From assembly GCA_028864975.1 (NCBI GenBank), contig JAGWLG010000015.1, positions 1 to 64,000 on the forward strand: a stretch of 64,000 nt of DNA. Reading direction: 5' to 3'. Positions 28,595-46,287 of the stretch are shown piece by piece. The notes beneath the pieces are model-generated. The model searched no databases, was not told the origin of the DNA, and worked only from the letters and a program-made list of their open reading frames with translations. The stretch is from Thermoplasmata archaeon (GTDB lineage: Archaea > Thermoplasmatota > Thermoplasmata > Lutacidiplasmatales > UBA184). The position numbers were made by a program, and so were the translations under genes. The number at the start of each line of letters is the position of its first letter. Positions within the stretch are counted from its first letter, which is position 1.

Positions 28595-29994
28595 GGACTC
28601 CCTTCGTGGAGGGCACCGCCACCGTCCCTCGCTCGTTTCGGGTCCGGTCGGTACTCCCCCACGACCCCCGCTTGGCGGAGCGCCTTGCGCGCCGGTTCGG
28701 AGAGGCCGAGGATGCCGGAGAGCACCGCGTCGTTGTCCTGGCCCAGCCAGGGACCCCCACGCCAGACCCGCCCCGGGGTCCGGGAGAGCTTGGGAGCGAC
28801 CCCGGCGCCGCGCACAGGCCCCAGGACCGGGTCCTCCCATCCGAGCAACATCTCGCGGGCCCTGAACTGGGGATTCTCCGCGATCTCTTGCATGCCCAGG
28901 ATGGGAGCGAAAGCGACGTCGTTCTGAAGCCCCAGCTCCTCGAGGTCGTGGACTGACCTGGCGCGGGTGAACTCCCGGAGACGCAGATCGATCCGATCCC
29001 GGTCTGAGAGGCGTCCCTCCATGGTCCTCCAAGAAGGCTCCTCGGGGAGGCCTACTAGCGATCTCAGCTTCTCCCAGCTGAGGGGGGTGGGAGCCGCCAA
29101 GGCGACCCACCCGTCGCGTGCGGGATAGATTCCGTAAGGGTACAGTCGCGGGTGGGCGGCCCCGTGCCTCTGCCGGACCTCGCCCCGGGAGAAGTAGTCC
29201 ACCGCCATGTTCTCCATCATCAGGAAGAAGAGCTCGTAGGCGGCCACGTCCACGACCTGCCCTTCCCCGGTCCGCTCGGCGTGGTGGAGGGCCATGAGCG
29301 CCGCCGTCGCTGCGCCCAGGCCGGTCACGAGGTCATTGATCGCGGTCCCGCTCTGCATCGGAGGCTTCGGGTCGGGCTCTCCCTGGCAAGCGAGGTAGCC
29401 GCTCATCGCCTGGGCGATGAGGTCGTAGGACGCGCGCCGAACGTATCGTGGGTCGCCGGTCTGGCCGAAGCCGGAAACGTGGACGATCACCAAGGCGGGA
29501 TTGGCCTCGAGGACGGTCGCGTCGGAGAGACCCAACTTGTCGAAGGTCCCCGGGCGTGAGGCGTCGATCCAGATCTGGGAGCGCTCCAAGAGGTCGAGCA
29601 GCAGCTCGCGCCCCTTGGCGGTCGTCAGGTCCAGGCCGAGGGAGAGCTTGTTGCGGCCGTACTGGACCCAGGACTCGGAGACCTGTCCCGCGGAGGGGGC
29701 CCCGACCGGGAGGAGTGGGGGAAGCAATCGGGAAGGGTCGACGTAGGAAGGGCCGAACGGAGGTCCTTCCACGTGGACCACCTCGGCCCCAAAGTCGGCC
29801 AGGAAGGTGGCCGCCCAGGGCCCTGCGACCACCCGTCCGGTATCGACGACCCGCACATCTTGGAGGGGCCCGTAGACGGGTGGGACCCGCCGTTCCTCGG
29901 ACGGCGGGACGGACGCCCCGGCGCCCTTCGGGCTGGGGGCGGAGGCCACCACGCCTCGCGTGGGGACCCCCCCGGGATAATCCGGGAGGTTCAC
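28591..29994 (-). CDS. CaiB/BaiF family (class III) CoA-transferase
   Basis: 467 residues from GTG, though the first ~37 are low-complexity and the true start may be later. The fold starts at LQDVRVVDTGRVVAGPWAAT. YGRNKLSLGLDL and ASYDLIAQAMSG are class III signatures, the latter containing the catalytic Asp that forms the acyl anhydride. The family moves CoA between carboxylic acids (formyl/oxalyl, carnitine or succinyl/aryl substrates). The overlap with the acyl-CoA dehydrogenase gene shows they work together. The substrate cannot be named. Confidence 0.85.
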   Translation of the reverse strand: MNLPDYPGGVPTRGVVASAPSPKGAGASVPPSEERRVPPVYGPLQDVRVVDTGRVVAGPWAATFLADFGAEVVHVEGPPFGPSYVDPSRLLPPLLPVGAPSAGQVSESWVQYGRNKLSLGLDLTTAKGRELLLDLLERSQIWIDASRPGTFDKLGLSDATVLEANPALVIVHVSGFGQTGDPRYVRRASYDLIAQAMSGYLACQGEPDPKPPMQSGTAINDLVTGLGAATAALMALHHAERTGEGQVVDVAAYELFFLMMENMAVDYFSRGEVRQRHGAAHPRLYPYGIYPARDGWVALAAPTPLSWEKLRSLVGLPEEPSWRTMEGRLSDRDRIDLRLREFTRARSVHDLEELGLQNDVAFAPILGMQEIAENPQFRAREMLLGWEDPVLGPVRGAGVAPKLSRTPGRVWRGGPWLGQDNDAVLSGILGLSEPARKALRQAGVVGEYRPDPKRARDGGGALHEGSP

Positions 29995-30054
29995 CGGTGC
30001 ACCTCGCGACGCTTATGGCCGAGGCCCGGTCCCCGTCCTCGGAGTCGGGAACGC

Positions 30055-30831
30055 GTGTCCGGTTCACCCTGGGACCTCTCCCCCAAGGAGTTCTGCGAGG
30101 AACTGGCCCGGTACAAGCTCGCCCACCACCCCTTCCGGACCCATCCTTTCTTCCGGGAGTGGGAAGAAGGCAAGCTTCCCCTTGACCACATCCGCGCCTG
30201 GGCGCCCCAGTTCTACGCCTGGCTCTGTGTGATTCCAAGAGCTTACGCGCTCCGGTTCGCCCAGCTTCCTTGGGACGACGCGCACGCGAAGTACCGCGAC
30301 ATGCTCCTCGAACACCTGACCGAGGAGGCCGGCTACCCTTCGGAGCAACACCGACCTCACCCCGAGCTCTTCCTGAACTTCTGCAAGGGGATCGGGCTGT
30401 CGCGCGAGAAGGTGCAGTCGACCCCCTGGCTCCCAGGGACCTACCTCGCGGTCGATGACTTCCTCTACGTCAACCACTACGAGCCGTTCTACGTCTCCGC
30501 CGCAGGGTCCTCCGAGCCCCCGAACGTCGAGCTCTGCGAGCGACTTCTCCCCACCCTTCGGAACGTCTACAAGGTCCCCGAAGCGAACCTCGAGTACTAT
30601 GTCATGCACGGGGAGCTGGACAAGGAGCATAGCCAGCTCGTGAACTCGATCGTCGCCGATTTCGCGGGAGAGGGCCCCCAGACACGCCGGAGGATGTGGG
30701 AGGCGATGTTGCGCGGGATCGGAGTGCACCAGGCCCTGGTCGATGGGGTTCTCTGGTCCCTCCGAGCCATCCCCCCGAGGTCTCTCAAAGCGAACATGAT
30801 CCCTCCCGCAACGCTGTCACGAACCCGTTGA
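30055..30831 (+). CDS. PqqC/TenA-like (heme-oxygenase fold) protein
   Basis: 258 residues from GTG. The fold is the PqqC/CADD-type helical bundle: HPFRTHPFFREWEEGKL, IRAWAPQFYAWLCVIPRAYA, MLLEHLTEEAGYPSEQHRPH and YVMHGELDKEHSQL. The His/Glu residues in the last two are in the right places for the di-iron ligands of heme-oxygenase-like diiron oxidases. No PQQ genes are nearby, so PQQ synthesis is unlikely. Related proteins include fatty-acid decarboxylases and the CADD protein of p-aminobenzoate synthesis. It is divergent from the CoA-transferase gene. CTTATGG at 30012-30018 is a possible TATA box. Confidence 0.7.
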   Translation: MSGSPWDLSPKEFCEELARYKLAHHPFRTHPFFREWEEGKLPLDHIRAWAPQFYAWLCVIPRAYALRFAQLPWDDAHAKYRDMLLEHLTEEAGYPSEQHRPHPELFLNFCKGIGLSREKVQSTPWLPGTYLAVDDFLYVNHYEPFYVSAAGSSEPPNVELCERLLPTLRNVYKVPEANLEYYVMHGELDKEHSQLVNSIVADFAGEGPQTRRRMWEAMLRGIGVHQALVDGVLWSLRAIPPRSLKANMIPPATLSRTR

Positions 30832-32954: not shown

Positions 32955-32962
32955 TGAAATAC
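32955..32962 (+). promoter_or_regulatory. Candidate promoter of the aro-trp leader
   Basis: TGAAATAC is the AT-rich element centred about 25 bp upstream of the leader-peptide ATG, as expected if the message starts at that ATG. A second candidate, GTATAG at 32908-32913, would give a ~45-nt untranslated leader. Both are weaker than the best TATA boxes elsewhere in the window. Confidence 0.4.
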
Positions 32963-32983: not shown

Positions 32984-33052
32984 ATGACCATTCCGAGCGG
33001 AACAGCCAAGGCTGCGCGCGCGGGCGGTCGGTATTTCTGGTCCTGGTGGTGA
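32984..33052 (+). CDS. Putative aromatic leader peptide of the aro-trp operon
   Basis: A 22-codon ORF that begins ATG-ACC-ATT-CCG and ends TAT-TTC-TGG-TCC-TGG-TGG-TGA, giving Arg-Tyr-Phe-Trp-Ser-Trp-Trp-stop. Five of its last six residues are aromatic, and all three aromatic amino acids made from chorismate are represented. It lies 107 bp upstream of the first gene of a 14-gene operon that makes chorismate and tryptophan. In bacteria, trp, phe and his leader peptides have exactly this design: a ribosome that stalls on codons for the scarce product alters leader RNA folding. I know of no established archaeal case, so the regulatory role is inference; the ORF itself is read directly from the sequence. 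Confidence 0.75.
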   Translation: MTIPSGTAKAARAGGRYFWSWW

Positions 33053-33095
33053 GCGGAGGCGCCGAACCGGCCTCCTCCTCAGCGTCCACCAAGAC
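33040..33095 (+). promoter_or_regulatory. Leader RNA pairing between Trp codons and a downstream segment
   Basis: GTCCTGGTGG (33040-33049, over the Trp-Ser-Trp-Trp codons) can pair with CCACCAAGAC (33086-33095) at 9 of 10 positions. It encloses a second hairpin, GGAGGC (33055-33060) with GCCTCC (33070-33075), that begins three bases after the leader stop codon. A ribosome stalled on the Trp codons would block the outer pairing. This is the arrangement of segments 1 and 2 in bacterial attenuators. No bacterial-type terminator with a U-run follows, so the output may be on translation or on an archaeal termination signal. Confidence 0.5.
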
Positions 33096-33128
33096 TTGAT
33101 GAGCAGGACGGTCCGGTACCTCCCTCGC

Positions 33129-33150
33129 CTCTCCGGGAACGGAAGGAGAG
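33129..33150 (+). promoter_or_regulatory. Hairpin covering the ribosome-binding site of the first aro gene
   Basis: CTCTCC (33129-33134) pairs perfectly with GGAGAG (33145-33150) across a 10-nt loop. The 3' arm contains GGAG 11 nt before the ATG at 33160, part of the purine-rich stretch GGAAGGAGAGAAGGAA. The arm can also pair, over five bases, with the CTCCT repeats at 33072-33079. It could hide or expose the Shine-Dalgarno site according to the state of the leader. Confidence 0.45.
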
Positions 33151-33159
33151 AAGGAACGG

Positions 33160-33918
33160 ATGAACGGCAAGGAGCTGCGCCTGCGTCGACTCTTCCCTAG
33201 CCCACGGGCCCGACTCTTTGCGGTCCCCTTGGACCACAGCTTGTCGGTCGGACCCATCGAGGGGCTCCGCCAGTTGGAGCCTACGGCGCGATCGCTCCAG
33301 GAGGGCGGCGTGCGCTGCCTCATCGTTCACAAGGGGGGGGTTCGGACCATCGCCGCCTCGCTCATGCCCTCCACCCTCTTGGGGGTCCACCTCTCCGCCT
33401 CGACCTCCCTGGCCCAGGATACGGGGCGGAAGCGGATCGCAGGGACGGTCGCGGAAGCGGTCCGACTCGGCGCGGACCTGGTGAGCGTTCAGGTCAACTT
33501 TGGGGACCCGGCAGAGGGCGAGATGCTGGAGGACCTCGGGCACATGGCCGAGGAGTGCGAGGCGCTGGGGATGCCGCTCCTCTGCATGACCTACGTCAGA
33601 TCGAAGGGCAAGGAGATCGAAGAGGCGGCGCTCGCCCACGCGTGCCGGGCCGCCGCGGACCTGGGGGCCGACGTCATCAAGACCAACTTCCCGAGCTCCC
33701 ACGGGTTCCGCAGGCTCGTAGAGAGTACCCCCGTGCCCGTCCTCGTGGGGGGGGGGCCGAAGCTCGACCGGGAGGAGGACCTCCTCCAACTCGTCCGAGA
33801 CGCGACCGAAGCGGGTGCGCGAGGCATCTGCATCGGGAGGAACCTGTTCCAATCGTCGGACATTGTCGCGACCGCTCGCAAGGTCGCTTCGACGCTCGAC
33901 GGGGTCGCCAAGGGCTGA
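33160..33918 (+). CDS. aroA': 2-amino-3,7-dideoxy-D-threo-hept-6-ulosonate (ADH) synthase
   Basis: 252 residues, class I aldolase TIM barrel. It catalyses the first step of the archaeal shikimate route: transaldol transfer between 6-deoxy-5-ketofructose 1-phosphate and L-aspartate semialdehyde. The Schiff-base Lys174 lies in ADVIKTNFPSS, and FAVPLDHSLSVGP carries the conserved Asp near the N-terminus. The phosphate site is VLVGGGPKL and ARGICIGRNLFQ. It replaces DAHP synthase, which is absent. It is the first structural gene of the operon, preceded by the leader peptide and a ribosome-binding site in a hairpin. The next gene follows after 11 bp. Confidence 0.92.
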   Translation: MNGKELRLRRLFPSPRARLFAVPLDHSLSVGPIEGLRQLEPTARSLQEGGVRCLIVHKGGVRTIAASLMPSTLLGVHLSASTSLAQDTGRKRIAGTVAEAVRLGADLVSVQVNFGDPAEGEMLEDLGHMAEECEALGMPLLCMTYVRSKGKEIEEAALAHACRAAADLGADVIKTNFPSSHGFRRLVESTPVPVLVGGGPKLDREEDLLQLVRDATEAGARGICIGRNLFQSSDIVATARKVASTLDGVAKG

Positions 33919-33929
33919 GGGAGCAACGC

Positions 33930-34964
33930 ATGGACCGACAGAGGATCGTCCTGGAGCTCGAGGCGGGCGAGGCCGGCGAACGGCTTCGTGGGTACGCCGA
34001 ACGACGCGGGTTCCACCGGTTCCTCCTTGCGGTCGGCGCAGCGAAGTCCACCCTGGTCGGACGTGAGGTCGTCCTGCGCAAAGGGACCGCTCTTCGATTC
34101 CCCGGTGGGGGAGGGGAAGGCGAGGTGCTCCGGGTGGCCCGCCCTGCGGACCTCGAAGGGGTGCTTCGGGCGCTTCAGGCCCGGCCCCTGGTCCTGGTCG
34201 AATTCGATCGCGAGCGGGTCATCCCTCTGGAGAATCTCATCGCCATGCGGCAGACCGCGGGGGAACACGCTCCGGGGGCCCTTTGGGTCCGCGCCCAACG
34301 TGCCGAGGAAGTGCCGGGCCTCCTAGGTGCCCTGGAGCATGGTTCGGACGGAGCGGTCGTGGCCGTCTCGGTGACGGAAGAGATCGACCGGCTCGAGGCC
34401 CACATCGATCGCCCCCGACTCGAGCTCTCCTGGAAGATCGCCCAGGTCGCACGCGTGACGCCCGGGGGGATCGGGGAGCGCGTGGTGGTCGACACGACCA
34501 GTCTGCTTGCCGAGGACGAGGGGATGCTCGTGGGGAGCCAGGGTGCGTTCCTCCTCCTGGTGGCTTCCGAGGCGCAAGGGTCGCGCTACACGAGACCCCG
34601 ACCGTTCCGCGTCAACGCGGGAGCGGTGCACTCCTACACGCTGCTCGCCGATGGAACGACCCGCTACCTTAGCGAACTGGAGGCCGGGGACCGCGTGGTC
34701 GTGGCCCGGCCCCGAGGAGACGCGAGGAGCGTCCGCGTCGGTCGGCTCAAGATCGAGCGTCGCCCCTTCACCCTGGTCGAGGTCAAGGTGGGCGCCCGTC
34801 GCTACACCCTCTTCCTCCAGGAGGCGGAGACGGTGCGCCTGACCACGCCCAAGGGTCCCAAGCCCGTCCCGGAGCTCTCGATACGCGACCGCTTGCTGGG
34901 GGTCGAACTTCCCGCCGCACGCCACTTTGGCATGGCCGTGCACGAGACGATCCTGGAGCGCTAG
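33930..34964 (+). CDS. aroB': 3-dehydroquinate synthase II
   Basis: 344 residues from the ATG 11 bp after the previous stop; the frame is open further upstream, but only as a shadow. It converts ADH to 3-dehydroquinate with NAD+-dependent oxidative deamination and cyclisation. Family hallmarks are VEFDRERVIPLENLIA, VVDTTSLLAEDEGMLVGSQG, SRYTRPRPFRVNAGAVHSY and YLSELEAGDRVVV. It is unrelated to bacterial AroB and pairs with ADH synthase, both here and in other archaea. Confidence 0.93.
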   Translation: MDRQRIVLELEAGEAGERLRGYAERRGFHRFLLAVGAAKSTLVGREVVLRKGTALRFPGGGGEGEVLRVARPADLEGVLRALQARPLVLVEFDRERVIPLENLIAMRQTAGEHAPGALWVRAQRAEEVPGLLGALEHGSDGAVVAVSVTEEIDRLEAHIDRPRLELSWKIAQVARVTPGGIGERVVVDTTSLLAEDEGMLVGSQGAFLLLVASEAQGSRYTRPRPFRVNAGAVHSYTLLADGTTRYLSELEAGDRVVVARPRGDARSVRVGRLKIERRPFTLVEVKVGARRYTLFLQEAETVRLTTPKGPKPVPELSIRDRLLGVELPAARHFGMAVHETILER

Positions 34965-34967
34965 GAG

Positions 34968-36560
34968 ATGGGAGCGCGGGACCACGCGATCGACCCCGAG
35001 GTCCTCGCCCCCCGGCCCGGACATCCGCTCCTCGTGGCGACCCTCCCTGGCCGGAAGGCGGAGGACCTTCGAACCGAAGTGCAGCAAGCTGCCGAGGCTG
35101 GCGCCGACCTGGTCGAGTTCCGCCTGGATCGGTTGTCGCGGGGAGAGGTGGGGAGGCTCGAGAGGGTGCATGAGCTGCCGCTCCTGCACCCTTGGGTCCC
35201 CGCGATCGCCACGCTGCGCTCGAAGGCCGAAGGGGGAGAAGGCCCGGACGACCTCCCCTCGCGCCGTAAGCTCGTCCTGGAGGCCCTCGACTCGCTTCCG
35301 TTCAGTTTCGTCGACCTCGAGGTCGCGCGCGATCTGCCGATGCGGGAGGAGCTCCGGAGCGCGGAAGGCCGCCGGCTCGGGGTCGTGGGCTCGGCCCACC
35401 TGCCCGCCGGGACCCCTACGGAGAAGGCGGTCCGGACCCTTCGTGCGGCGATGCAGGGGAACGAGGTGGCCAAGGTCGTTCTCCCGGCTCCCGCGGGCCA
35501 GGTGGTCCGAGAGATCCTCCCGGCCCTGGAAAGTTTCCGAGGCTCTCCCTATGTTTGTCACACGACCGGGGGTGCCGGGTCGCTGCTCCGTGTCCTCGCG
35601 CCACGCCTCGGGATGGCCTGGGTCTACTGCCGCCTACCGGGCGACCGCGGGGTGGCGGAGGTCGAACGCTCTCAGGTCCCCCTCGATCGGATGCGGCGCT
35701 TCATCAACTCCGGTCCGGAGGCCCCCTGGATGGCGGTCGTCGGGAACCCTATCGGCCACACTCTCTCCCCCGACCTTCAGGCCTCCTTCCTGAAAGCGAC
35801 CCATACCGAGGGCATCTACGTCGCGCTCGAGCTCACGTCCGAGGAGGAGTTCATGACCGTCCTCCCGGCCCTCCGACGCTACGGGCTGCGGGGGGTGAAC
35901 GCGACCCGTCCGTTCAAGCGGGCCGCGTATCAGCTAGCCAAGGTCCGTAGCGAACACGCCAGCGCTAGCGCGGCGGTGAACACGCTCGTCGCGGACCCTG
36001 CCGATCCTACGGGGTTCCGTGGGCACAACACGGACGTCTCCGCCCTGCTTCGCTGGTGGGGAGAGCTCGAGAAGGCGGGGACCCCGCTGGACCGGGTCCT
36101 GGTGGTGGGGACCGGGGGGGCCGCGCGCGCGGCGGTGCTCGCGAGCGTCCTTCACGGAGCCCAGGTCTTCGTCCTGGGCCGCCGCCCCGAGCGGGTCCAG
36201 GAGCTGGTCCATGACTTCCCTCCCGAGACGGTGCACGCGATCCCGCCGGGGTCCCTGCGAGAGTTCCCGCTCGTCGTCCACGCCACCCCCGTGGGCCAGG
36301 AGGGGGAGGAAGGGGGGGTCCTCGAGGTCCCCCTACAACGTGCTCTCGGAAGCGGAAGCCTCTTGGTCGACCTCGTGTACCGCCCTCGAGCGTCCACCGT
36401 GCAAGACCTGGTGAAGGCCCCTGGCGCCCGCTACGTCGACGGGATGCGGATGCTCGTTTACCAGGCTGCCGAAACCTTCCGTCTTTTCACCGGGACCCAG
36501 GTCCCCGACCGTCTGGTCGAGGAGTGGGTAGCCCCCGCTGCCGAGGGGGTGGCGGCATGA
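34968..36560 (+). CDS. aroDE: Bifunctional 3-dehydroquinate dehydratase / shikimate dehydrogenase
   Basis: 530 residues, two enzymes fused. Residues 1-240 are a type I dehydroquinate dehydratase with Glu50 (VEFRLDRL), His144 (VGSAH) and the Schiff-base Lys169 (NEVAKVVLPA). Residues ~252-530 are shikimate dehydrogenase with VVGNPIGHTLSPDLQ, the catalytic Lys317 in GVNATRPFK, HNTD, the NADP-binding VVGTGGAARAA and the C-terminal VYQAAETFRLFTG. The enzyme performs two successive steps, 3-dehydroquinate to shikimate. The same order of fusion is known in plants and some bacteria; I am less sure how common it is in archaea. The start lies 3 bp after the previous stop. Confidence 0.93.
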   Translation: MGARDHAIDPEVLAPRPGHPLLVATLPGRKAEDLRTEVQQAAEAGADLVEFRLDRLSRGEVGRLERVHELPLLHPWVPAIATLRSKAEGGEGPDDLPSRRKLVLEALDSLPFSFVDLEVARDLPMREELRSAEGRRLGVVGSAHLPAGTPTEKAVRTLRAAMQGNEVAKVVLPAPAGQVVREILPALESFRGSPYVCHTTGGAGSLLRVLAPRLGMAWVYCRLPGDRGVAEVERSQVPLDRMRRFINSGPEAPWMAVVGNPIGHTLSPDLQASFLKATHTEGIYVALELTSEEEFMTVLPALRRYGLRGVNATRPFKRAAYQLAKVRSEHASASAAVNTLVADPADPTGFRGHNTDVSALLRWWGELEKAGTPLDRVLVVGTGGAARAAVLASVLHGAQVFVLGRRPERVQELVHDFPPETVHAIPPGSLREFPLVVHATPVGQEGEEGGVLEVPLQRALGSGSLLVDLVYRPRASTVQDLVKAPGARYVDGMRMLVYQAAETFRLFTGTQVPDRLVEEWVAPAAEGVAA

Positions 36561-37453
36561 GCGCCGCAGGTCCGGTGACGATGGGGCCGACGCTTCGTGA
36601 CGGCGCCTGGGGCGCCATCTCCTTCCTGAACGCGATCCCCCAGGGGATCGGCTGTGCCGCCGCGATCTCCCTTCCCGTCACGGTCGAGGTCCAGTACGTC
36701 CCGGCTCCGCCGCAGAGCAAGCCCTGGCTCGACACCACCGAGGGGGAGGCGACCCCGCTCCTGCGCTGGACCCTGGACAAGGTCTACGAGAGCGTTCCCG
36801 TCCCTCCCATCTACAAGTTCCATGTGGCGGTGAGGTCGGGGGTTCCCCCCCAAAAGGGCCTCAAGAGCTCCTCGGCGGTCTCCGTCGCCCTCGCGCGGGC
36901 GCTGCGTCGGGTCCTAGGCCAGAGCCCGACCCCTGCGGAAGTCGCCACGCTCTCCGCCAAGGCGGCCCTGGCGGCGGGGGTCTCGGTCACCGGCGCCTTC
37001 GACGACGCGCTCGCGTGCGCCATGGGCGGCGTGGTGGTCGCTGACGTCCGGGCGCACTGGCAGATGCTCTCCACCGAGGTCCCTTCGGGACTTCAGGCCC
37101 TCCTCTGGATACCGGAGACCACCCGCCCCGACCTTGCGAAGCGGAGCTCCGAGCTGAGGGCGCCCGACATGAACGCCAAGGAGGCGGTCCGCCTCGCGCT
37201 CCGGGGCGACTATCTCAAGGCGATGAAGTACAACTCGCTCGTCGTGGAGCGGGCGTTGGGTTACGATTACGCCAAGTTACGCGAGGCCGGGCTCACCAAG
37301 GGAGCGCTGTCGGCCGGGGTCACCGGGAACGGTCCGGCGGTGGCCTTCGTCTGCCCCCGGGAGCTGACCCCGCAGGTGGCCTCCGCCCTACCATGGCAGG
37401 GCGCGAAGCTGCTCACGGCGGAGTTCGTGCGCCCCGGGGTGGTGCCCGCGTGA
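36557..37453 (+). CDS. aroK: Archaeal shikimate kinase (GHMP family)
   Basis: 298 residues, ATGA overlap with aroDE. It phosphorylates shikimate with ATP. It belongs to the GHMP superfamily, not the bacterial NMP-kinase-like AroK. The ATP loop is PPQKGLKSSSA (97-107), GHMP motif 1 is WGAISFLNAIPQGIGCA, and the C-terminal motif is SAGVTGNGPAVAFVCP. GAFDDALACAMGG is also typical. This type is confined almost entirely to archaea and supports the taxonomic call. Confidence 0.92.
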   Translation: MSAAGPVTMGPTLRDGAWGAISFLNAIPQGIGCAAAISLPVTVEVQYVPAPPQSKPWLDTTEGEATPLLRWTLDKVYESVPVPPIYKFHVAVRSGVPPQKGLKSSSAVSVALARALRRVLGQSPTPAEVATLSAKAALAAGVSVTGAFDDALACAMGGVVVADVRAHWQMLSTEVPSGLQALLWIPETTRPDLAKRSSELRAPDMNAKEAVRLALRGDYLKAMKYNSLVVERALGYDYAKLREAGLTKGALSAGVTGNGPAVAFVCPRELTPQVASALPWQGAKLLTAEFVRPGVVPA

Positions 37454-38904
37454 TGGTGCCTGCCGAACGTCAACGACCCGCAAGGACCGCCACTTCGCCG
37501 GACCCCGAAGCGGCTCTTCTCAGGTTGAATGAGGGTGCGGGCCTGCCGCCGCTTCCAGGACGGGTCGTGGTCACCCCGGGCACCGCCCGCGGGACGCTGA
37601 CCGCTCCACCTTCCAAGAGCTACACCCACCGCGCGCTCGTCGTCGCCGCGCTCGCCGAGGGACCCACGAGGGTGATCGGGGGGCTCCGGAGCGAGGACAC
37701 GCTGGCCAGCCTTCGGGCGGTCATCAGGTTGGGTGGGCAGCTGCGGGCAGCCCCCCCTGAGGCGCCTCCGGGAGGGGAAAGCGTCCTTCCTCCGCTCGCG
37801 CTCGACCCTCTCCCCCTGGGCCCGAGTCATGGAGGGGTGGCGGAGATCGACACCGCCGAGTCCGGGACCACCCTGCGGCTCTTTAGCGCCGTCGCCGCGC
37901 TCCTCCCTCGTACCTCCCGCTTCTCCGGGAGTCCTTCTCTCGCCCGGCGCCCTCTGGGTGGGCTCCTCCAAGCCCTTGCTTGTCTGGGGGCCAGCTTCGA
38001 TGGCCCTCCTCCAGGTCGGTCCCTACCCTTCTCGGTCCGCGGGCCGCTCCACGGGGGGAGCGTCTCGGTCTCCGGGAGCGAAAGTAGCCAGTTCACTTCC
38101 GCGCTGCTCATCGCGCTCCCTTGCCTTGCGGAGGGCTCCGAGCTCCAGGTCGCAGGTGCGAGGGTGAGCCTTCCGTACGTGGAGGCAACGCTCGAGGTCC
38201 TGCGACAGCAAGGAGTGCACATCGAGAGCGCGCCCTCCAACCGCTACGTCATCCCGGGCGGTCAGCGCTACCGGGGAGGCCACCTCACGGTCACGGGCGA
38301 CGCCTCCTCCGCCGCGTACTTCCTCGCCTTGGGCGCCATCCAAGGTGGGCCCATCACGGTCAAAGGGGTTGACCTGCACGTCCCGCAGGCCGACCTGGCC
38401 CTGCTCCCTGTGCTCGAACGTGCAGGGGCACGCGTCCGTCGCGGCGAACGGGAGCTCACCGTGGAGCGCCGCGGGGGAAGGCTCTCGCCCTTCGAGGTCG
38501 ACCTGACGGCCTCGCCCGATCTTGCCCCCCTTCTGGCCGTCGTGGCCGCCTTCGCCCAGGGGCGATCAAAGCTGCTCGGGGCTTCCCATCTCGAGGCCAA
38601 GGAGAGCGACCGTCGACAGGGCTCCTTGAGGCTGGCCCAGGCGCTGGGCGCGAGCGCACGAGCGACCGAGGAAGGTATCGAGGTCGAGGGCCCCGTTCAG
38701 GTGTGCTCGCTGGACCTGAGGGACCTCTCGGACCACCGGATGTTCATGAGCGCCGCGGTCGCCGCTGCCGCCCTCAAGGAGCCCTCGACGCTCGAAGACC
38801 CCCGGGTGGTGCGCAAGTCCTACCCGGGTTTCCTGGAGGACCTGGGGAGCCTGGGGATACAGGTCGAAGGCGCTCGGGGGGGAGCTCCTGGGAGGTCGAC
38901 ATGA
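37453..38904 (+). CDS. aroA: EPSP synthase (3-phosphoshikimate 1-carboxyvinyltransferase)
   Basis: 483 residues; the start overlaps the aroK stop by one base (TGATG). It joins phosphoenolpyruvate to shikimate 3-phosphate. Motifs in order: APPSKSYTHRALV, TAESGTTLRLF, GSESSQFTSALL, TGDASSAAYFLAL and LEAKESDRRQG. Two segments depart from the compact core: a ~45-residue N-terminal extension and an insert near PPEAPPGGESVLPP. They account for the length above the usual ~430 and carry no known motif. Confidence 0.92.
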   Translation: MVPAERQRPARTATSPDPEAALLRLNEGAGLPPLPGRVVVTPGTARGTLTAPPSKSYTHRALVVAALAEGPTRVIGGLRSEDTLASLRAVIRLGGQLRAAPPEAPPGGESVLPPLALDPLPLGPSHGGVAEIDTAESGTTLRLFSAVAALLPRTSRFSGSPSLARRPLGGLLQALACLGASFDGPPPGRSLPFSVRGPLHGGSVSVSGSESSQFTSALLIALPCLAEGSELQVAGARVSLPYVEATLEVLRQQGVHIESAPSNRYVIPGGQRYRGGHLTVTGDASSAAYFLALGAIQGGPITVKGVDLHVPQADLALLPVLERAGARVRRGERELTVERRGGRLSPFEVDLTASPDLAPLLAVVAAFAQGRSKLLGASHLEAKESDRRQGSLRLAQALGASARATEEGIEVEGPVQVCSLDLRDLSDHRMFMSAAVAAAALKEPSTLEDPRVVRKSYPGFLEDLGSLGIQVEGARGGAPGRST

Positions 38905-39989
38905 GGATGGCGATCGGGGAAGCGCTCCGTCTCACCCTCTTTGGCTCAAGCCACGGTCCCGTCGTGGGTGCCGTGCTCGAGGGTCTCCCCGCGGGGACCC
39001 CTGTCGACCTTGAGGCGGTCCAGCGCGAGCTGGACCGTAGGCGCCCCATCGGTCGCGCGCTCGCGACCAAGCGGCGGGAAGAGGACCAGCTCCGAGTGGA
39101 ATCCGGGCTCGTCAACGGACGCACCACGGGAGACCCGCTCGTCGGGGTGGTCGAGAACCGGGACGTCCGGCGAGGGCCATACCGAGAGCTCGAGGACGTC
39201 CCTCGACCCGGGCATGCGGACTTCCCCGCGAGGATGCGATACGGCGAGGCCTTCGACCTTTCCGGAGGGGGGATCTTCTCCGGCCGGATGACCGTGGGGC
39301 TGGTCTTTGGAGGGGCGGTCGCCCGAGGCCTCCTCTCCCCTCAGGGGATCGATGTGCTCGCCTTCACCCGCTCCTTGGGAGGGGTCGACGCCTCGGCGGC
39401 CTCGCTCGAGCGACGGCTCCCTGAGCTTCGTGCCGACGTGCTGTCGCACGAGGTGGGGTGCCCGGACCTGTCCGCGTCCAAGCGGATGTCGGAGGCGATC
39501 GAGCGCGCACGGAAGGACGGCGACAGCGTCGGGGGTGTCATCGAGGTGCGGGCTGAGGGGCTGCCCGTCGGGGTGGGCGAGCCGTTCTTCGACTCGGTCG
39601 AGAGCACCCTCGCCCATGCGCTCTTCTCGGTCCCGGCGGTCAAGGGGGTCGAGTTCGGCGCGGGATTCACGGCCGCAAGGATGCGCGGGAGCGAGCACAA
39701 CGACCCGTTCTTCGTGGAGGACGGACGGGTCCGTAGCCGCACCAACCACGCCGGAGGCATCCTGGGGGGGCTCACCACGGGAATGCCCCTGGTGGCGCGG
39801 GTCGTGGTCAAGCCCACCTCCTCGATCGCCAAGGAGCAGGAGTCCGTCTCGCTGAGCACGAAGTCCTCACGTAGGCTTGTGGTCAAGGGGCGGCACGACC
39901 CATGTATCGTCCCGCGTGCGGTCCCCGTGGTGGAGAACCTCACCGCGTTCGTGCTGGCGGACCTGATGGCCCGCGGGGGGTTCCTGTGA
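38901..39989 (+). CDS. aroC: Chorismate synthase
   Basis: 362 residues, ATGA overlap with aroA. It eliminates phosphate from EPSP to give chorismate and needs reduced FMN. Motifs: LFGSSHGPVVGAVLEGLPAG, RRPIGRALATKRREEDQ, RPGHADFPARMRYGE, FGAGFTAARMRGSEHND and the C-terminal RHDPCIVPRAVPVVENLTA. Its product feeds TrpE/TrpG encoded three genes downstream. No tyrA, pheA or chorismate mutase is in the window. Confidence 0.94.
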   Translation: MRMAIGEALRLTLFGSSHGPVVGAVLEGLPAGTPVDLEAVQRELDRRRPIGRALATKRREEDQLRVESGLVNGRTTGDPLVGVVENRDVRRGPYRELEDVPRPGHADFPARMRYGEAFDLSGGGIFSGRMTVGLVFGGAVARGLLSPQGIDVLAFTRSLGGVDASAASLERRLPELRADVLSHEVGCPDLSASKRMSEAIERARKDGDSVGGVIEVRAEGLPVGVGEPFFDSVESTLAHALFSVPAVKGVEFGAGFTAARMRGSEHNDPFFVEDGRVRSRTNHAGGILGGLTTGMPLVARVVVKPTSSIAKEQESVSLSTKSSRRLVVKGRHDPCIVPRAVPVVENLTAFVLADLMARGGFL

Positions 39990-41074
39990 GCGAAGCGCGC
40001 CGGAGGACGGTGCTCCTGGGCGCGAGCGGCTGGATCGGGCAGCACTTCGCGCGGTTGTTGGACGACCATCCGTACTTCGACTCCCCGATCCTGACCGGGG
40101 CGACGAGCGCGGGGAAGAGCCTGGGCGAGCTCTGGCAGCTGGCGGACCAGCCCGTGCCCCAGGGGCTCGCAGAATCGAAGATCGAGAGGTTGACCCCTGC
40201 GGAGATCGCGCGGAGGGGGGTCGAGGTCGCCTTCAGCGCCCTTCCTTCGGGGGAGGCCGGAGCCTTCGAGGCCGAGCTCGCCCGCCGGGGGGTCGCCGTC
40301 TTCTCCAACGCTTCCGCGCATCGGATGGACCCCCAGGTCCCCTTGGTCATCCCCGAGATCAACGGGGACCATCTCGACGCCATCGAACGGCAGCCGTGGG
40401 AAGGCAGCATCGTCACGAACTCGAACTGTTCTACGGCAGGCCTCGTGCTGGCCCTCGCTCCCCTGGTGCCCTTGCTCCGGCCCAAGGAGGTCTTCGTGGC
40501 GACCTACCAGGCCCTCTCCGGGGCAGGCTACCCTGGGGTCCCCTCCCTGTCGATCGAGGACAACGTCCTTCCGTTCATCGCGGAGGAGGAGGAGAAGATG
40601 GAGCGTGAGACCGCGAAGATCCTGGGGGGCTTTCGGGGCGGACGTTTCCGTCCCCTCTCGCTTCCCGTGAGCGCGCACTGCGCTCGCGTAGGCTCCCGGG
40701 AGGGCCACCTCGAGGCCGTGACCCTCAAGGCCGGGACCCCTGCCAAGGCCTCGGAGATCGTTCGGGCTTGGGAGGACTTCCAACCCCTCTCCCCTCGAGC
40801 GCGTGGCGACCGTGAAACGCTCCCGACCGCCCCTGATCACCCCGTGGTCTACCGGCGGGAGGTGGACCGTCCTCAGCCCATCCGCGACCGTTGGGCCGGG
40901 ACCCCCGCGCGCGCACGGGGCATGGCCGTGAGCGTCGGCCGCCTCCGGGTCGACCGTGAGCATGTCCGGTTCTTCACGCTCTCGCACAACGCGGTCCGAG
41001 GGGGAGCTGGTGGGAGCGTGCTCAATGCCGAGCTCGCCCTTCGGAAGGGGCTTCTCGGAGGGCGACGGAGATGA
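39986..41074 (+). CDS. asd: Aspartate-semialdehyde dehydrogenase
   Basis: 362 residues, GTG start overlapping the aroC stop (GTGA). It reduces aspartyl phosphate with NADPH to aspartate semialdehyde. The Rossmann start is TVLLGASGWIGQHFARLL, the catalytic Cys is in VTNSNCSTAGLVLALAP, and the His lies in LPVSAHCARVGSREGH. It is of the archaeal/fungal class. Its product is a co-substrate of ADH synthase, the first enzyme of this operon, which explains its place among aromatic genes. The product also feeds threonine, methionine and lysine synthesis. Confidence 0.92.
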   Translation: MSEARRRTVLLGASGWIGQHFARLLDDHPYFDSPILTGATSAGKSLGELWQLADQPVPQGLAESKIERLTPAEIARRGVEVAFSALPSGEAGAFEAELARRGVAVFSNASAHRMDPQVPLVIPEINGDHLDAIERQPWEGSIVTNSNCSTAGLVLALAPLVPLLRPKEVFVATYQALSGAGYPGVPSLSIEDNVLPFIAEEEEKMERETAKILGGFRGGRFRPLSLPVSAHCARVGSREGHLEAVTLKAGTPAKASEIVRAWEDFQPLSPRARGDRETLPTAPDHPVVYRREVDRPQPIRDRWAGTPARARGMAVSVGRLRVDREHVRFFTLSHNAVRGGAGGSVLNAELALRKGLLGGRRR

Positions 41075-42456
41075 CCACGGAAGCGCTTTGCGTCGTCAAG
41101 TACGGAGGGGCCGCCCTCGGTTCGGAGGAGAGCCTCCGGGACGTGATCCGTGAACTGCGAGCTCGCAAAGGCCCCATCGTAACGGTCGTTTCCGCACGGG
41201 AAGGGGTCACGGACCTGCTCAAGGCGGCGACCGCCGACCCCGCGAGCCGCGCTCGGCACGAAGAGGTCCTTCGCAAGCTCACCGCGCTCCATGCGGGGGG
41301 ACCCCGAGAGGTTACGCTCGCGCTGCGCGCGCTCGAACGGCAGCTCACCCGTCTGCGGAGCGCGATGCGTCAGCTGCCTCCCAGGGCCCGCCGCTACCCC
41401 TCCACCCGCGCGCCGGTCGTCCTTTCGGACGCTATCCTCGCGCAGGGAGAGCGCCTGGCGGCGCATTGGTTCGCCGACCGTCTCCGACATGGGCGGGTAG
41501 CGGCACGGGCCTTGGAAGCGGACCTGATCGGGCTCTCGACGGACGACCACCACGGCGAGGCGATCGTCCTGCTCGACCGGTCGGAGCTCCCGGTCCGCCG
41601 CGCCGTGACGCCCCTGCTGAGGCGGGGCCAGGTGCCGGTGGTCACCGGGTTCCTGGGCCGATCTCCCTCCGGGAAGGTCGCGACGCTCGGCCGAGGAGGG
41701 TCGGACTACTCGGCGACGTGCCTCGGGTACCTTCTCGGGGCCTCCCGCGTGGAGCTGGTCAAGAAGGACGTCTCGATCCTTACAGCGGACCCCCGCATCG
41801 TCCCGGCCGCCCGGCCTCTCTCGCGCCTCTCCTACGAGGAGGCGGAGGAGCTGGCGCAGTTTGGCGCCAAGGTCCTCCACCCGCTCACCGTCGAGCCCGC
41901 CCGCGCGCGTGGCGTCGAGGTCGTGATCCGCTCCCTCGAGGACCCGACCAGGACCACGACCATCGGACCCGCCCTTCCGGGGGAAGGCATCCGGGCCTTG
42001 ACGCTCCTTTCGCCCACGGCGATGCTCCTGCTCCGCGTTCCGGGGGGGCGCCAGCGGAGGGGGGTGATCGCCGAGGTGAGCCGCACGCTCGCCGCGGCGG
42101 AGGTGAACGTCATCACGATGTTCACCTCCTCGGCCCTCCTGATCGTGCTCGTTGAGATGGCCTCGGGCCGCAAGGCCCGCAGGGCCTTGGACCCGTTCGC
42201 TCGGGGGGACGGGGCCTCGCTGGAAGGGCCGCTGGAGGCCGCCCTGGTGACCGCGATCGGGGAGGGGGTGCTCGCGGACCTCGGAGGGCTTCCGGGGGAC
42301 GTGGCCTCCCGGGCGCTCGGGGTCTCGGCGACCTCCCGGACCCTCTCCTTCGCCGTGCCCATGGCCTCGGGTCGCGAATCGCTCGTGAGCCTCCACCGTG
42401 CCCTGGTCGAGCTTCCCCGAGCGGTCACGCTCGAGGGCACCGTCCGGGGCACCTGA
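41071..42456 (+). CDS. lysC: Aspartate kinase
   Basis: 461 residues, ATGA overlap with asd. It phosphorylates aspartate, the step before Asd. The N-terminal VVKYGGAALGS stands for the usual KFGGTS loop, so two positions are changed. VATLGRGGSDYSATCLGYLL and VELVKKDVSILTADPR are typical of the kinase domain. The C-terminal ~150 residues form two ACT-like regulatory domains (IAEVSRTLAAAEVNVITMFT), so feedback control is likely, but the effector is unknown. Placement with asd supplies aspartate semialdehyde to ADH synthase. Confidence 0.9.
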   Translation: MTTEALCVVKYGGAALGSEESLRDVIRELRARKGPIVTVVSAREGVTDLLKAATADPASRARHEEVLRKLTALHAGGPREVTLALRALERQLTRLRSAMRQLPPRARRYPSTRAPVVLSDAILAQGERLAAHWFADRLRHGRVAARALEADLIGLSTDDHHGEAIVLLDRSELPVRRAVTPLLRRGQVPVVTGFLGRSPSGKVATLGRGGSDYSATCLGYLLGASRVELVKKDVSILTADPRIVPAARPLSRLSYEEAEELAQFGAKVLHPLTVEPARARGVEVVIRSLEDPTRTTTIGPALPGEGIRALTLLSPTAMLLLRVPGGRQRRGVIAEVSRTLAAAEVNVITMFTSSALLIVLVEMASGRKARRALDPFARGDGASLEGPLEAALVTAIGEGVLADLGGLPGDVASRALGVSATSRTLSFAVPMASGRESLVSLHRALVELPRAVTLEGTVRGT

Positions 42457-42471
42457 AAGGGGGAGCATGCG

Positions 42472-43758
42472 ATGCCGGCACCCACCCCCCGAGCCGGCCC
42501 CCACCGCGACCCGTGGTGGAACTTCGTTCGTCGGAGCGCGGAGGACCCCGCGAGCGCCTTCTACTTCGAGCGGGGGGCCTCCCCCGGTCGGAGCGGACGC
42601 TACTCGTTCTTCGGGTTCGGCCCGTCCGAGCGAGAGGAATGGTCCGAACCTCGGGACGTGTCGGCCTCGCGCCTCCGCGTCCGGGGGAACGACCCACATC
42701 GCGCGGACGGAAGCTGGGTCGGGTTCGTCGGGTTCGACGCCGTAGGGCTTTTCGAACCTCTGCTCGGGCCCTCGACCCCCCGAGGCTCACCCTTCCCGGT
42801 CGCCCTGTTCGACCGGTACCCGCATGTCGAGCACGCCCACCATCTTGGGGCCCCCGAAAGGGGGGCCGCGCCCGGTCTTCCCCCGAGCCCCGAAGTTGGT
42901 GAGGTCGAGGACTCCACAACGCGCGACCGCTTCGAGCGCTCGGTGGAGCATCTCCGCGAGGCGATCTACGACGGCGAGGCCTTCCAGGTCGTCCTCGCGC
43001 ACCGGCGGTCCCGGCGCTTCAGGGGGAGCCTGCTCCCGGTGGTCGACCGCCTGCGTCGCGAGGAGCACTTCGCCTTCCTGTACTATCTCCGCATCGTGGA
43101 CGGGACCTCGGCAGGAGGAACGCCCATCGAGATCGCGGGGGCGTCGCCCGAGTCCGTAGTCGAGATCCGGGACGGGACGGTCGCGGTCAACCCGATCGCC
43201 GGGACCCGCCCCCTCCCCGCCCCCACGCGGGGACCCGCGGCCCGCCTTCCGTTGGACAAGGACCCCAAGGAGCTCGCGGAGCACCGGATGCTCGTCGATC
43301 TCGCCCGCAACGATATCGGACGGGTCTCCCAGGTGGGGAGCGTCCACCTCTCTCGACGTGAGACCCGCGTGCCTTACGCACGTCTGGAGCACCTCGTCAG
43401 CCGGGTCGTCGGCCGTCTGAGCAACGGCGCGAGCGCGATCGACGCGCTGGTCGCGACCTTCCCGGCGGGGACGGTGAGCGGGGCGCCCAAGATCCGTGCC
43501 ACCGAGCTTTTGCGCAGGGAGGAGCGGTCCTGGCGCGGGACGTACGGGGGGACGGTCGGGATCGTGACCCCCGGCGGGGAGGCCGATTTCGCGCTCGCGA
43601 TCCGCTCGGCCGCCGCGGCCCGGGGCCGGGTCTACACGCAGGCCGGAGCGGGGATCGTCCACCTCTCGAAACCCGCCCAGGAATGGGAGGAGACCCTCGC
43701 CAAGCTGGCGACCGTCGAGCGGGCCCTCGAGGGAAAGATACGGAGGGTCCGGCGTTGA
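42472..43758 (+). CDS. trpE: Anthranilate synthase component I
   Basis: 428 residues. With TrpG it turns chorismate and glutamine (or ammonia) into anthranilate. The chorismate-binding part is standard: EAFQVVLAHR, IAGASPESVVEIRDG, NPIAGTRPLP, HRMLVDLARNDIGRV, FPAGTVSGAPKIRATELL and YTQAGAGIVHLSKPAQEWEE. At the N-terminus, the LLES tryptophan-binding element of feedback-inhibited TrpE is replaced by YFER (residues 31-34, in FYFERGASPGRSGRYSF). The start is 15 bp after the aspartate kinase stop, the largest gap in the operon and a possible internal re-initiation point. Confidence 0.92.
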   Translation: MPAPTPRAGPHRDPWWNFVRRSAEDPASAFYFERGASPGRSGRYSFFGFGPSEREEWSEPRDVSASRLRVRGNDPHRADGSWVGFVGFDAVGLFEPLLGPSTPRGSPFPVALFDRYPHVEHAHHLGAPERGAAPGLPPSPEVGEVEDSTTRDRFERSVEHLREAIYDGEAFQVVLAHRRSRRFRGSLLPVVDRLRREEHFAFLYYLRIVDGTSAGGTPIEIAGASPESVVEIRDGTVAVNPIAGTRPLPAPTRGPAARLPLDKDPKELAEHRMLVDLARNDIGRVSQVGSVHLSRRETRVPYARLEHLVSRVVGRLSNGASAIDALVATFPAGTVSGAPKIRATELLRREERSWRGTYGGTVGIVTPGGEADFALAIRSAAAARGRVYTQAGAGIVHLSKPAQEWEETLAKLATVERALEGKIRRVRR

Positions 43759-44342
43759 AGCTCGTGCTCATCGACCATCAGGATTCCTTCGTCTACAACC
43801 TCGCCCAGGCCCTCGGTCGGCTTGGGGCCGAGGTCGTCACGCTGCGCTCGAGCCTTCCGCTGCGAGCGGTCCTGCGCGAGGACCCGGACCTCCTCGTCCT
43901 CTCCCCGGGGCCGGGCCATCCTTCGGACCCCCGAACGATGGGAGTGACCCCTCGACTGCTTTCCCGGGGAGGGCTGGCGCGCGAGCTCCCCACGCTGGGG
44001 GTCTGTCTGGGACACCAGGCGATCGGTGCGGCGTTCGGAGGGACGGTGCACCGAGGCCCCTACCCCTGCCACGGAGAGACCTCGCGGGTCCTGCATCACC
44101 GAGAAGGGCTCTACGAAGGGGTCCCCAGCCCCTTCTCGGCGGCCCGGTACCACTCTCTGGTCGTGGACCGCCACGACCTCCCCGCCGAGCTCGAGGAAAC
44201 GAGCTGGGAGGCGGGTGGAGTACTGATGGGCCTGCGCCACCGGACGCTTCCCATCGAGGGCGTTCAGTTCCACCCCGAGTCCTATCTTACGCGGTACGGC
44301 GATAGGCTCCTCGGGAACTTCCTGAAGAGGGCCCGCCGATGA
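43755..44342 (+). CDS. trpG: Anthranilate synthase glutamine amidotransferase component
   Basis: 195 residues, beginning with TTG that overlaps the trpE stop (TTGA). No ATG or GTG exists that keeps the first beta strand (LVLIDHQDSFVYNL) complete. It hydrolyses glutamine for TrpE. The nucleophile Cys84 is in LGVCLGHQAIG, and the His-Glu pair is in GVQFHPESYLT. LLVLSPGPGHPSD is the oxyanion loop. It may also serve aminodeoxychorismate synthesis, but no pabB is nearby. Confidence 0.92.
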   Translation: MKLVLIDHQDSFVYNLAQALGRLGAEVVTLRSSLPLRAVLREDPDLLVLSPGPGHPSDPRTMGVTPRLLSRGGLARELPTLGVCLGHQAIGAAFGGTVHRGPYPCHGETSRVLHHREGLYEGVPSPFSAARYHSLVVDRHDLPAELEETSWEAGGVLMGLRHRTLPIEGVQFHPESYLTRYGDRLLGNFLKRARR

Positions 44343-45412
44343 ACGTGGATCCCTCGACAGGACCCGCGGCCTTGCAGCACCTGGTCCAGGGGGAGGACCT
44401 CGGACCTGAGGAGGCCCGAGAGGTCGCCGAGGGTCTGTTGACGGGGGCCTTCCCCCCGGAGGTCGTGGCGTCCCTCCTCACGGCCCTGGCTGCGAAAGGA
44501 GAGAGCCCGGAGGAGCTCTACGCCTTCTCCTCGACCCTGCGGGCGCGAGCTCGACCCTTCCCGGGACCCGCGGAGGCCGGGGCCGTGGACCTGTGCGGGA
44601 CGGGGGGGGCGAAGACGCCGACGTTCAACATCTCGACGGTCAGCGCCTTCGTCCTCGCGGGGGCGGGCGTCCCGGTCGCCAAACATGGGAACGTCTCCGC
44701 CCGAAGGCCGTGCGGGTCCTCGGACGTACTGAGCGCCCTAGGGCTTCCGGTCCTTCGCTCCGTGGCCTTCGCCGAGGCCTCCTGGAGGAAGGAACGGCTC
44801 TGCTTCCTCCATGCTCCGCTCTTCCATGCCGCGACCCGGAGCGTGGCGCCGGTCCGCAAGGCGCTTGGGCTCCGGACCATCTTCAATCAGCTGGGGCCTC
44901 TCACGAACCCTGCAGGGGTCTCGACGCAGCTCGTAGGGTGTTTCTCGAGGGAGTATGCCCGGCGGGTCACCCCCGTGCTCCACCGGTTGGGCGTGCACCG
45001 GTCCCTCGCGGTCCACGGGAAGGGAGGGATGGACGAGCTCAGCTCCAAGGGGACGGACTGGCTCCTCCGATCGGTCGAAGCGAGCGGTGAGGGCGGGGGC
45101 GCGACCGAGGTCTCGATCGACCCTTCCACGCTCCTGTCGCCCGAGGAGCGCCGTGGCGACCTTCGTCCCCGGTCGCCTGGGGAGGCGGCCGAGCTCACGC
45201 GGGCGGTCCTCTCGGGAGAAGGGGACGGAGCGGTCCGCGGGGCCGTCCTGCTGACCGCAGGGGCCGCGATATGGCTTCACGGCTCCGCCCCCGAGCTGCC
45301 GAGTGGCGTGGCGTTGGCGAGGTCGGCCCTTCAGGACGGCCGGGCGCTCGACAAGCTCCAGAAGCTCCAAGCGCTCGCCCGCTCCCAGGACTGGCCGGAG
45401 GGGTCCCCTTGA
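44339..45412 (+). CDS. trpD: Anthranilate phosphoribosyltransferase
   Basis: 357 residues, ATGA overlap with trpG. It transfers phosphoribosyl from PRPP to anthranilate. Motifs: DLCGTGGAKTPTFNIST (PRPP loop), VPVAKHGNVSARRPCGSSDV, KALGLRTIFNQLGPLTNPAG and VHGKGGMDELSSKG. The usual N-terminal helical domain is present, so the length is normal. Confidence 0.93.
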   Translation: MNVDPSTGPAALQHLVQGEDLGPEEAREVAEGLLTGAFPPEVVASLLTALAAKGESPEELYAFSSTLRARARPFPGPAEAGAVDLCGTGGAKTPTFNISTVSAFVLAGAGVPVAKHGNVSARRPCGSSDVLSALGLPVLRSVAFAEASWRKERLCFLHAPLFHAATRSVAPVRKALGLRTIFNQLGPLTNPAGVSTQLVGCFSREYARRVTPVLHRLGVHRSLAVHGKGGMDELSSKGTDWLLRSVEASGEGGGATEVSIDPSTLLSPEERRGDLRPRSPGEAAELTRAVLSGEGDGAVRGAVLLTAGAAIWLHGSAPELPSGVALARSALQDGRALDKLQKLQALARSQDWPEGSP

Positions 45413-46287
45413 GCCCACGGTCTCCCACGAACCCGGCACGGGCCGACGCGAAGTCCGCTCCAGGGAACTTCCTGGACACCATGGTGAAGACGGTGGAGGA
45501 GGAACTGCGCGCGGGGCTCTACGCACGGCGCCCACCCCGAGGGGACGAGCCCCCGCCGGGACGTCCCCGGTTCGCGGAGGCCCTTCATCGGGTCTCGGAG
45601 GGGCCGGCCTTGATGGTGGAGCTCAAGCATGCCTCCCCCGGGCGCTCGCAGCCGCGGCTTCCTGCGCTCTCTCCGGAGCGTTTCGTTCGGGTGTGCGAGG
45701 ACGCGGGGATCAGCGCGCTCTCGGTGATCCCTCAGCCCTACGAGTTCGGAGGCAACCTGGAGGAGTTCGGGAAGGTCGCCCACCTATCCCGTCTGCCGCT
45801 CCTTTTCAAGGACTTCATCATCGATGAGGCCCAGATCCAGGCCGCGAAAGTGCACGGAGCTTCGGCGGTCCTGCTCCTCGCCCGGCTCGCGCGCGCCCAG
45901 TCCCTGCACGGCAACCTGGAAGGGCTGGTGAAGGCGGCCCATGCTCGAGGGCTGGAGACCCTGGTGGAAGTGCATGCGAAGGCCGAGGTACCCCTAGCGC
46001 TCAGCTCCGGGACGGACGCCCTTGGGGTCAACGCCCGAGACCTCGGAACGCTCCACCTGGACCCTCGCTCCGCGCTGCCGGTGCTGCGCGAGCTGCGCAA
46101 GGACCCCCGGCCGCTCGTGGCCATGAGCGGCGTGGAAGGACCGCGCGAGGTGGCCCTCTACGGCGCCTCGGGGGCCGACGCGATCCTCATCGGGACGGCC
46201 TTCGCGCGTTCCCACGACCCGCTCGCGTTCCTGCGGGGCCTGCGTGCGGAGCCCCCCCGCAACGAGGCCGCGGTGGGGGACCGTTGA
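45409..46287 (+). CDS. trpC: Indole-3-glycerol-phosphate synthase
   Basis: 292 residues from a TTG that overlaps the trpD stop (TTGA). The family core begins near NFLDTMVKTVEEELRAGLY, so the first ~25 residues are extra and the ATG at 45481 would be too late. It is a TIM barrel: MVELKHASPGRSQPR (catalytic Lys), ISALSVIPQPYEFGG, LLFKDFIIDEAQI (catalytic Lys), DALGVNARDLGTLHLD and VAMSGVEGPREV. FGGN and NARDL stand for the usual F.G and NRdL. It closes the indole ring from CdRP. Confidence 0.9.
   Translation: MSPRSPTNPARADAKSAPGNFLDTMVKTVEEELRAGLYARRPPRGDEPPPGRPRFAEALHRVSEGPALMVELKHASPGRSQPRLPALSPERFVRVCEDAGISALSVIPQPYEFGGNLEEFGKVAHLSRLPLLFKDFIIDEAQIQAAKVHGASAVLLLARLARAQSLHGNLEGLVKAAHARGLETLVEVHAKAEVPLALSSGTDALGVNARDLGTLHLDPRSALPVLRELRKDPRPLVAMSGVEGPREVALYGASGADAILIGTAFARSHDPLAFLRGLRAEPPRNEAAVGDR

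Follow-up and report, generated by a model that had tools for sequence, protein, structure and literature searches.

Textbooks describe attenuation by leader peptides as a mechanism of bacteria. Enterobacteria and actinobacteria have trpL attenuators, in which the trp genes are preceded by a short open reading frame (ORF) that carries Trp codons towards its end, and mutually exclusive RNA pairings are chosen by a stalled or a terminated ribosome. In ermC-like translational attenuators, the position of the ribosome on the leader ORF decides whether the Shine-Dalgarno region of the next gene is masked, the signal being an antibiotic-stalled ribosome. In the case of TnaC, a Trp-linked leader peptide for which the ribosome at UGA is the key state, free Trp is sensed via conserved tunnel residues and a catabolic operon is induced. 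For archaea, the aromatic and trp operon control described as responding to aromatic amino acids involves the TrpY repressor and the TK0271 (Tar) activator, and beyond these two little is known about the control of archaeal trp genes (PMC6737238). Both are DNA-binding transcription regulators that act without a leader peptide. A 2023 tool paper made the general statement that archaeal genes, too, are regulated by uORFs (PMC10219788), and Ribo-seq of Methanosarcina mazei revealed translated ORFs in 5' UTRs, with no claim of attenuation (PMC11456600). The open-access literature, to which our search was confined, yielded no archaeal leader-peptide attenuator.

The window analyzed here, the whole stretch of 64,000 nucleotides, contains on its forward strand a 22-codon ORF (positions 32984 to 33052; ATG at 32984, TGA at 33050 to 33052) encoding MTIPSGTAKAARAGGRYFWSWW and predicted to be leaderless. 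Its putative regulatory codons, Tyr-Phe-Trp-Ser-Trp-Trp (33032 to 33049, forward strand; W-X-W in relatives), precede the stop directly, and the sequence TAT TTC TGG TCC TGG TGG TGA reported in a preliminary description of this DNA was exactly the one present. That description also held such an aromatic tail to be unlikely by chance, in agreement with our count: the 64-kb window has 412 ATG-started ORFs of 10 to 50 codons, counting both strands, and this was the sole case with at least four (here five) aromatics in the last six residues. The leader-peptide interpretation was likewise supported by the analysis, and we infer a regulatory role for the ORF.

A gap of 107 nt separates the leader from the ADH synthase gene (33160 to 33918, forward strand; Pfam PF01791), which encodes an enzyme of the archaeal shikimate pathway with a DeoC/LacD fold and is the first gene of the operon. 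It is followed on the same strand by the genes for DHQ synthase II, a DHquinase-shikimate DH fusion, a GHMP shikimate kinase, EPSP synthase, chorismate synthase and aspartate-semialdehyde DH (33921 to 41074), by an aspartokinase-like gene (41071 to 42456) and by trpE, trpG, trpD, trpC, trpF, trpB and trpA (42472 to 48934). The operon thus comprises 15 genes, and not the fourteen first counted: six serve chorismate synthesis, the next two encode aspartate-semialdehyde DH and aspartokinase, and the last seven are trpE-G-D-C-F-B-A. In the archaeal pathway, aspartate-semialdehyde is fed to ADH synthase, so the presence of the semialdehyde DH and aspartokinase genes (39986 to 42456) within the aro-trp operon fits its content; on general knowledge of the pathway, the aspartokinase and the preceding semialdehyde DH would make the substrate of ADH synthase. 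In many relatives (ADH synthase loci of genera g5 and g7), a TenA/haem-oxygenase-like gene lies directly upstream of the operon. In the window, OsmC-like, DnaJ-domain and response-regulator genes stand between such a gene (29773 to 30831) and the operon.

The named relatives closest to this genome are Thermoplasmata assembled from metagenomes, including Candidatus Lutacidiplasma silvani, of the order Lutacidiplasmatales (PMC9287336). The DNA 5' of ADH synthase, correctly oriented, was compared in about 89 relatives with readable loci, drawn from a family sample of 103 genomes in seven genera that includes the window genome (G000). The preliminary description would have been contradicted by relatives devoid of the ORF; a Trp-tailed ORF was found at the equivalent place before the same operon in 60 of these approximately 89 loci. 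Since the leaders are phylogenetically related, the counts that follow (n = 60) are not independent. Fifty leaders had 23 codons, five had 22, three had 24 and two had 20; all 60 ended in UGA and carried Trp at position -1, and 58 carried it at -3, the most frequent tails being TWLW and AWLW. Nucleotide identity reached 85% in the tail versus 42% in the body, and the peptide body (18 residues in the 23-mers) was only 18% identical between species. In-frame TGG did not occur in the leader bodies (0 of 1,072 codons), compared with 18 of 2,024 off-frame triplets. The leader length was always a multiple of 3, and the distance from its stop to ADH synthase fell in all three classes. The middle codon of W-X-W was represented by six different codons across the leaders, with both UGG codons kept, while in genus g1 the W positions were shifted (WSWW, GPWW and SWWW). 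The leader ORF is therefore a real feature of these genomes and not a product of chance.

All copies read had an intact ORF, except for the loss of one of the two Trp codons in genome G044. The tail of that leader (L251) reads RTGSW before the stop, the -3 Trp codon being now GGG, the sole such case among the copies read outside g1; decay or a sequencing error would account for it. In a further observation, all 45 W-L-W tails used CUC for the Leu codon (-2), a uniformity greater than Trp sensing needs. Together, the fixed 23-codon length (50 of 60, despite a body that can vary freely) and the invariant CUC go beyond what Trp sensing alone explains.

A covariance model built from the tail and the following hairpin, with the start codon outside it, found the element essentially once per genome, before ADH synthase. 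Extra strong matches in G072 and G082, near the ends of short contigs and with scores equal to that of the main copy, look like assembly duplicates. Among 260 sampled genomes of the class, the RNA model gave no match at E ≤ 0.001 outside the family, and the curated RNA families of Rfam gave none above the gathering score. In 40 other Thermoplasmata genomes, no recurrent Trp-rich ORF emerged from up to 6 kb of sequence preceding trpE; operon starts lying farther away would escape this search.

Archaeal TATA boxes are centered near -26. In all 60 loci, a TATA-like hexamer, most commonly TAAATA, began 27 to 33 nt ahead of the leader ATG, and in 55 of them the spacing was 28 to 30 nt; in the window, the TATA-like box TGAAATAC (32955 to 32962, forward strand), with the hexamer AAATAC, belongs to the predicted operon promoter. 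From this spacing, the transcript is predicted to start at the leader ATG. A start downstream of 33052 had been named as evidence against the leader, and the predicted promoter places it at or just before the ATG. The leader transcript is thus probably leaderless, as judged from promoter position; leaderless mRNAs are in wide use in Thermoplasma and haloarchaea (PMC7531240).

The presence of the leader was closely related to that of the trp genes. Thus, trpE was found in 54 of 65 leader-bearing genomes, the 11 without it all being less than 90% complete, and it was absent from 22 of the 27 genomes that kept ADH synthase with no leader before it. Among genomes at least 90% complete, trpE occurred in 21 of 21 with the leader versus 4 of 15 without (11 of 15 lack trpE; Fisher 2e-6). 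All five genomes with trpE and no leader at ADH synthase belong to genus g2, and their trpE contig differs from the ADH synthase contig. In one of them, G001, the full element (TATA, MAAGPCHVSYDARPAMSSCAWGW, A, C and D; segments described below) sits immediately in front of trpE, with 99 nt to the probable ATG of that gene and a computed A:C duplex of -34.2 kcal/mol, and ADH synthase has no leader. In the other four (G002 to G005), trpE follows closely behind a zinc-ribbon gene with no leader. On the basis of the G001 relocation and the co-occurrence with trpE, the element tracks the trp genes rather than ADH synthase.

The earlier remark that the tail covers all three aromatic amino acids needs a refinement: Trp alone is conserved in the relatives, and the combination of Tyr and Phe is peculiar to the window genome, a lone Tyr being found in G036. 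Prephenate dehydratase was present in 1 of the 103 family genomes, the window's own. The link between the Tyr/Phe codons and this enzyme is a single case that agrees with the earlier remark on three aromatics, and contamination may still explain the prephenate dehydratase locus despite its window-like composition (tetranucleotide correlation, 0.97). No convincing leader was found near the HisG or prephenate dehydratase genes when leaders for other amino acids were considered. As a separate observation, many archaea of the family seem unable to make several amino acids, with HisG in 3 of 28 genomes, prephenate dehydratase as above and trpE missing in 22.

Segment A (typically CGGGAGGCGCCGGGA) follows the UGA directly; B (GGCGCC and neighbors) is next, and C (typically CCGGCGCCTCCC) and D lie farther downstream. 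In the window, all on the forward strand, A is CGGAGGCGCCGAACCGG (33054 to 33070), whose first part would lie beneath a ribosome positioned on the stop codon; B (GCCTCC, 33070 to 33075) is the local hairpin partner of A (33055 to 33060); C is ACGGTCCGGTACCTCCC (33108 to 33124); and D, the Shine-Dalgarno region of ADH synthase, is GGAAGGAGAGAAGG (33141 to 33154). The computed pairings were mutually exclusive, A pairing with adjacent B (predicted off state) or distant C (on), and C with A (on) or D (off). Applied to the full alignment, RNAalifold returned a weak structure because lengths vary, and pairwise swap and anchored-helix tests were therefore used. Cognate A:C duplexes were stronger than those swapped between species (mean, -29.7 versus -27.1 kcal/mol; p 2e-4, z -7.6), and cognate C:D duplexes were stronger than those with swapped partners (p 0.002); within genus g7 alone, both swap tests were near the significance limit. 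In the anchored 10-pair A:C alignment, 90% of cells paired, a value that dropped to 56 to 71% on sliding and that is flattered by the choice of C as the best match to A, which favors this helix. Double changes were seen in 12 cells (0 of 500 shuffles).

To model the ribosome, we treated it as a moving edge hiding everything 5' of it and took as output the unpaired probability of the Shine-Dalgarno/start region. Across the 60 leaders, the mean unpaired probability of the Shine-Dalgarno region was 0.56 up to about +3, 0.44 at +10, 0.42 at +12 and 0.40 from +16. With the 3' edge of the ribosome about 12 to 15 nt past the A-site codon, as assumed from bacterial toeprints, a wait at W(-3) would put the edge at 0 to +3 and a wait at the stop at +9 to +12, so that the accessibility transition was bracketed. 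Accessibility dropped from the Trp codons to the stop in 54 of 60 leaders (Wilcoxon p 2e-10), with no drop in six; the mean change was 0.137, compared with a mean of -0.012 and at most 0.005 in shuffled sets. In the window leader, it fell from 0.63 to 0.43 at +12 and 0.26 at +18. The modelled switch is thus partial and not all-or-none.

Read from the sequences by comparative and computational means alone, the leader ORF with its Trp tail, the placement of the promoter, the alternative pairings and the co-inheritance with the trp genes point with considerable probability to a ribosome-mediated attenuator, most likely acting on translation initiation. The mRNA would begin at the leader ATG, and a ribosome translating about 23 codons would meet the Trp codons just before UGA. 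When Trp is scarce, it would wait on UGG with its leading edge near the stop, leaving A free to pair with C, the Shine-Dalgarno region D would stay open and the operon would be on. When Trp is plentiful, the ribosome at the stop would hide the start of A, C would pair with D, and initiation at ADH synthase would fall, as would expression of the downstream genes, by coupling or polarity, turning the operon off. A shortage of Tyr or Phe would act likewise in the window genome, through the codons for these amino acids in its leader.

The same sensor could instead cause premature transcription termination, either factor-dependent or through polarity with the first gene untranslated, and bacterial trp leader-peptide attenuators do usually act on transcription (PMC1262725). 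However, U-runs between the leader and ADH synthase did not exceed 4 in any of the 60 loci, which makes a U-tract terminator unlikely, and the 3' partner in the predicted off state is the Shine-Dalgarno region itself. Archaeal terminators need U-tracts; factors can terminate untranslated archaeal RNA. We regard termination as an unlikely output and, given the lack of a U-tract, blocked translation initiation as more likely than a bacterial-type terminator. It is very unlikely that the leader is a TnaC-like arrest peptide, with free Trp stalling the ribosome at UGA so that A stays covered and the operon is off. At termination, the conserved W-X-W-UGA would lie at the peptidyl-transferase center, the stop is always UGA, and the off state is that of a ribosome at the stop; nevertheless, TnaC requires specific upstream residues, conserved at a fixed distance in the tunnel, and here the residues farther up are unconserved (body 18% identical) and include no Trp, and the W positions shift in genus g1.

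A DNA operator or a protein-binding RNA, with the ORF incidental to it, can scarcely be credited. The identity of the tail and the invariant Leu codon do imply some constraint at the nucleotide level, but the ATG, the frame, the length and the freedom from in-frame stops and, in the body, from Trp codons persist even though nucleotide identity in the body has sunk to 42%; six codons occur in the middle of W-X-W between two UGG codons that stay unchanged, and codon content tracks pathway content in the window genome. Apart from its shortness, nothing favors a functionless chance ORF, whose probability is negligible in the face of more than 60 conserved copies that are lost together with the trp genes.

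The preferred reading, a translational attenuator, shares with the trpL systems the conserved short ORF upstream of trp genes, the codons for the end product near its end and the exclusive helices, here computed. It differs in being archaeal, with a predicted leaderless ORF after a TATA box, in a predicted off state that masks the Shine-Dalgarno region and in its putative control of the whole chorismate and Trp operon; having no intrinsic terminator (hairpin plus U-tract), it is not classed as a bacterial-type transcription attenuator. As in ermC-like systems, the off state would sequester the Shine-Dalgarno region in a helix and the on state would release it, a partial switch that the model shows in 54 of 60 leaders, the predicted signal being a lack of charged tRNA-Trp rather than an antibiotic. 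We think it likely that this is the first leader-peptide amino-acid attenuator in Archaea, a leaderless Trp-codon ORF controlling Shine-Dalgarno access of a chorismate-tryptophan operon, following relocated trp genes, absent without them and with its codons re-tuned (Tyr, Phe) in the sole prephenate dehydratase genome.

If so, ribosome-sensed amino-acid control would extend to a second domain and would work on leaderless mRNA without a bacterial terminator, raising the question of independent evolution. It would also offer a clear and testable design of three short RNA segments, one start codon and a pair of UGG codons. The conserved Trp leader in dozens of species of soil archaea suggests that archaea share with bacteria this way of sensing a missing amino acid.
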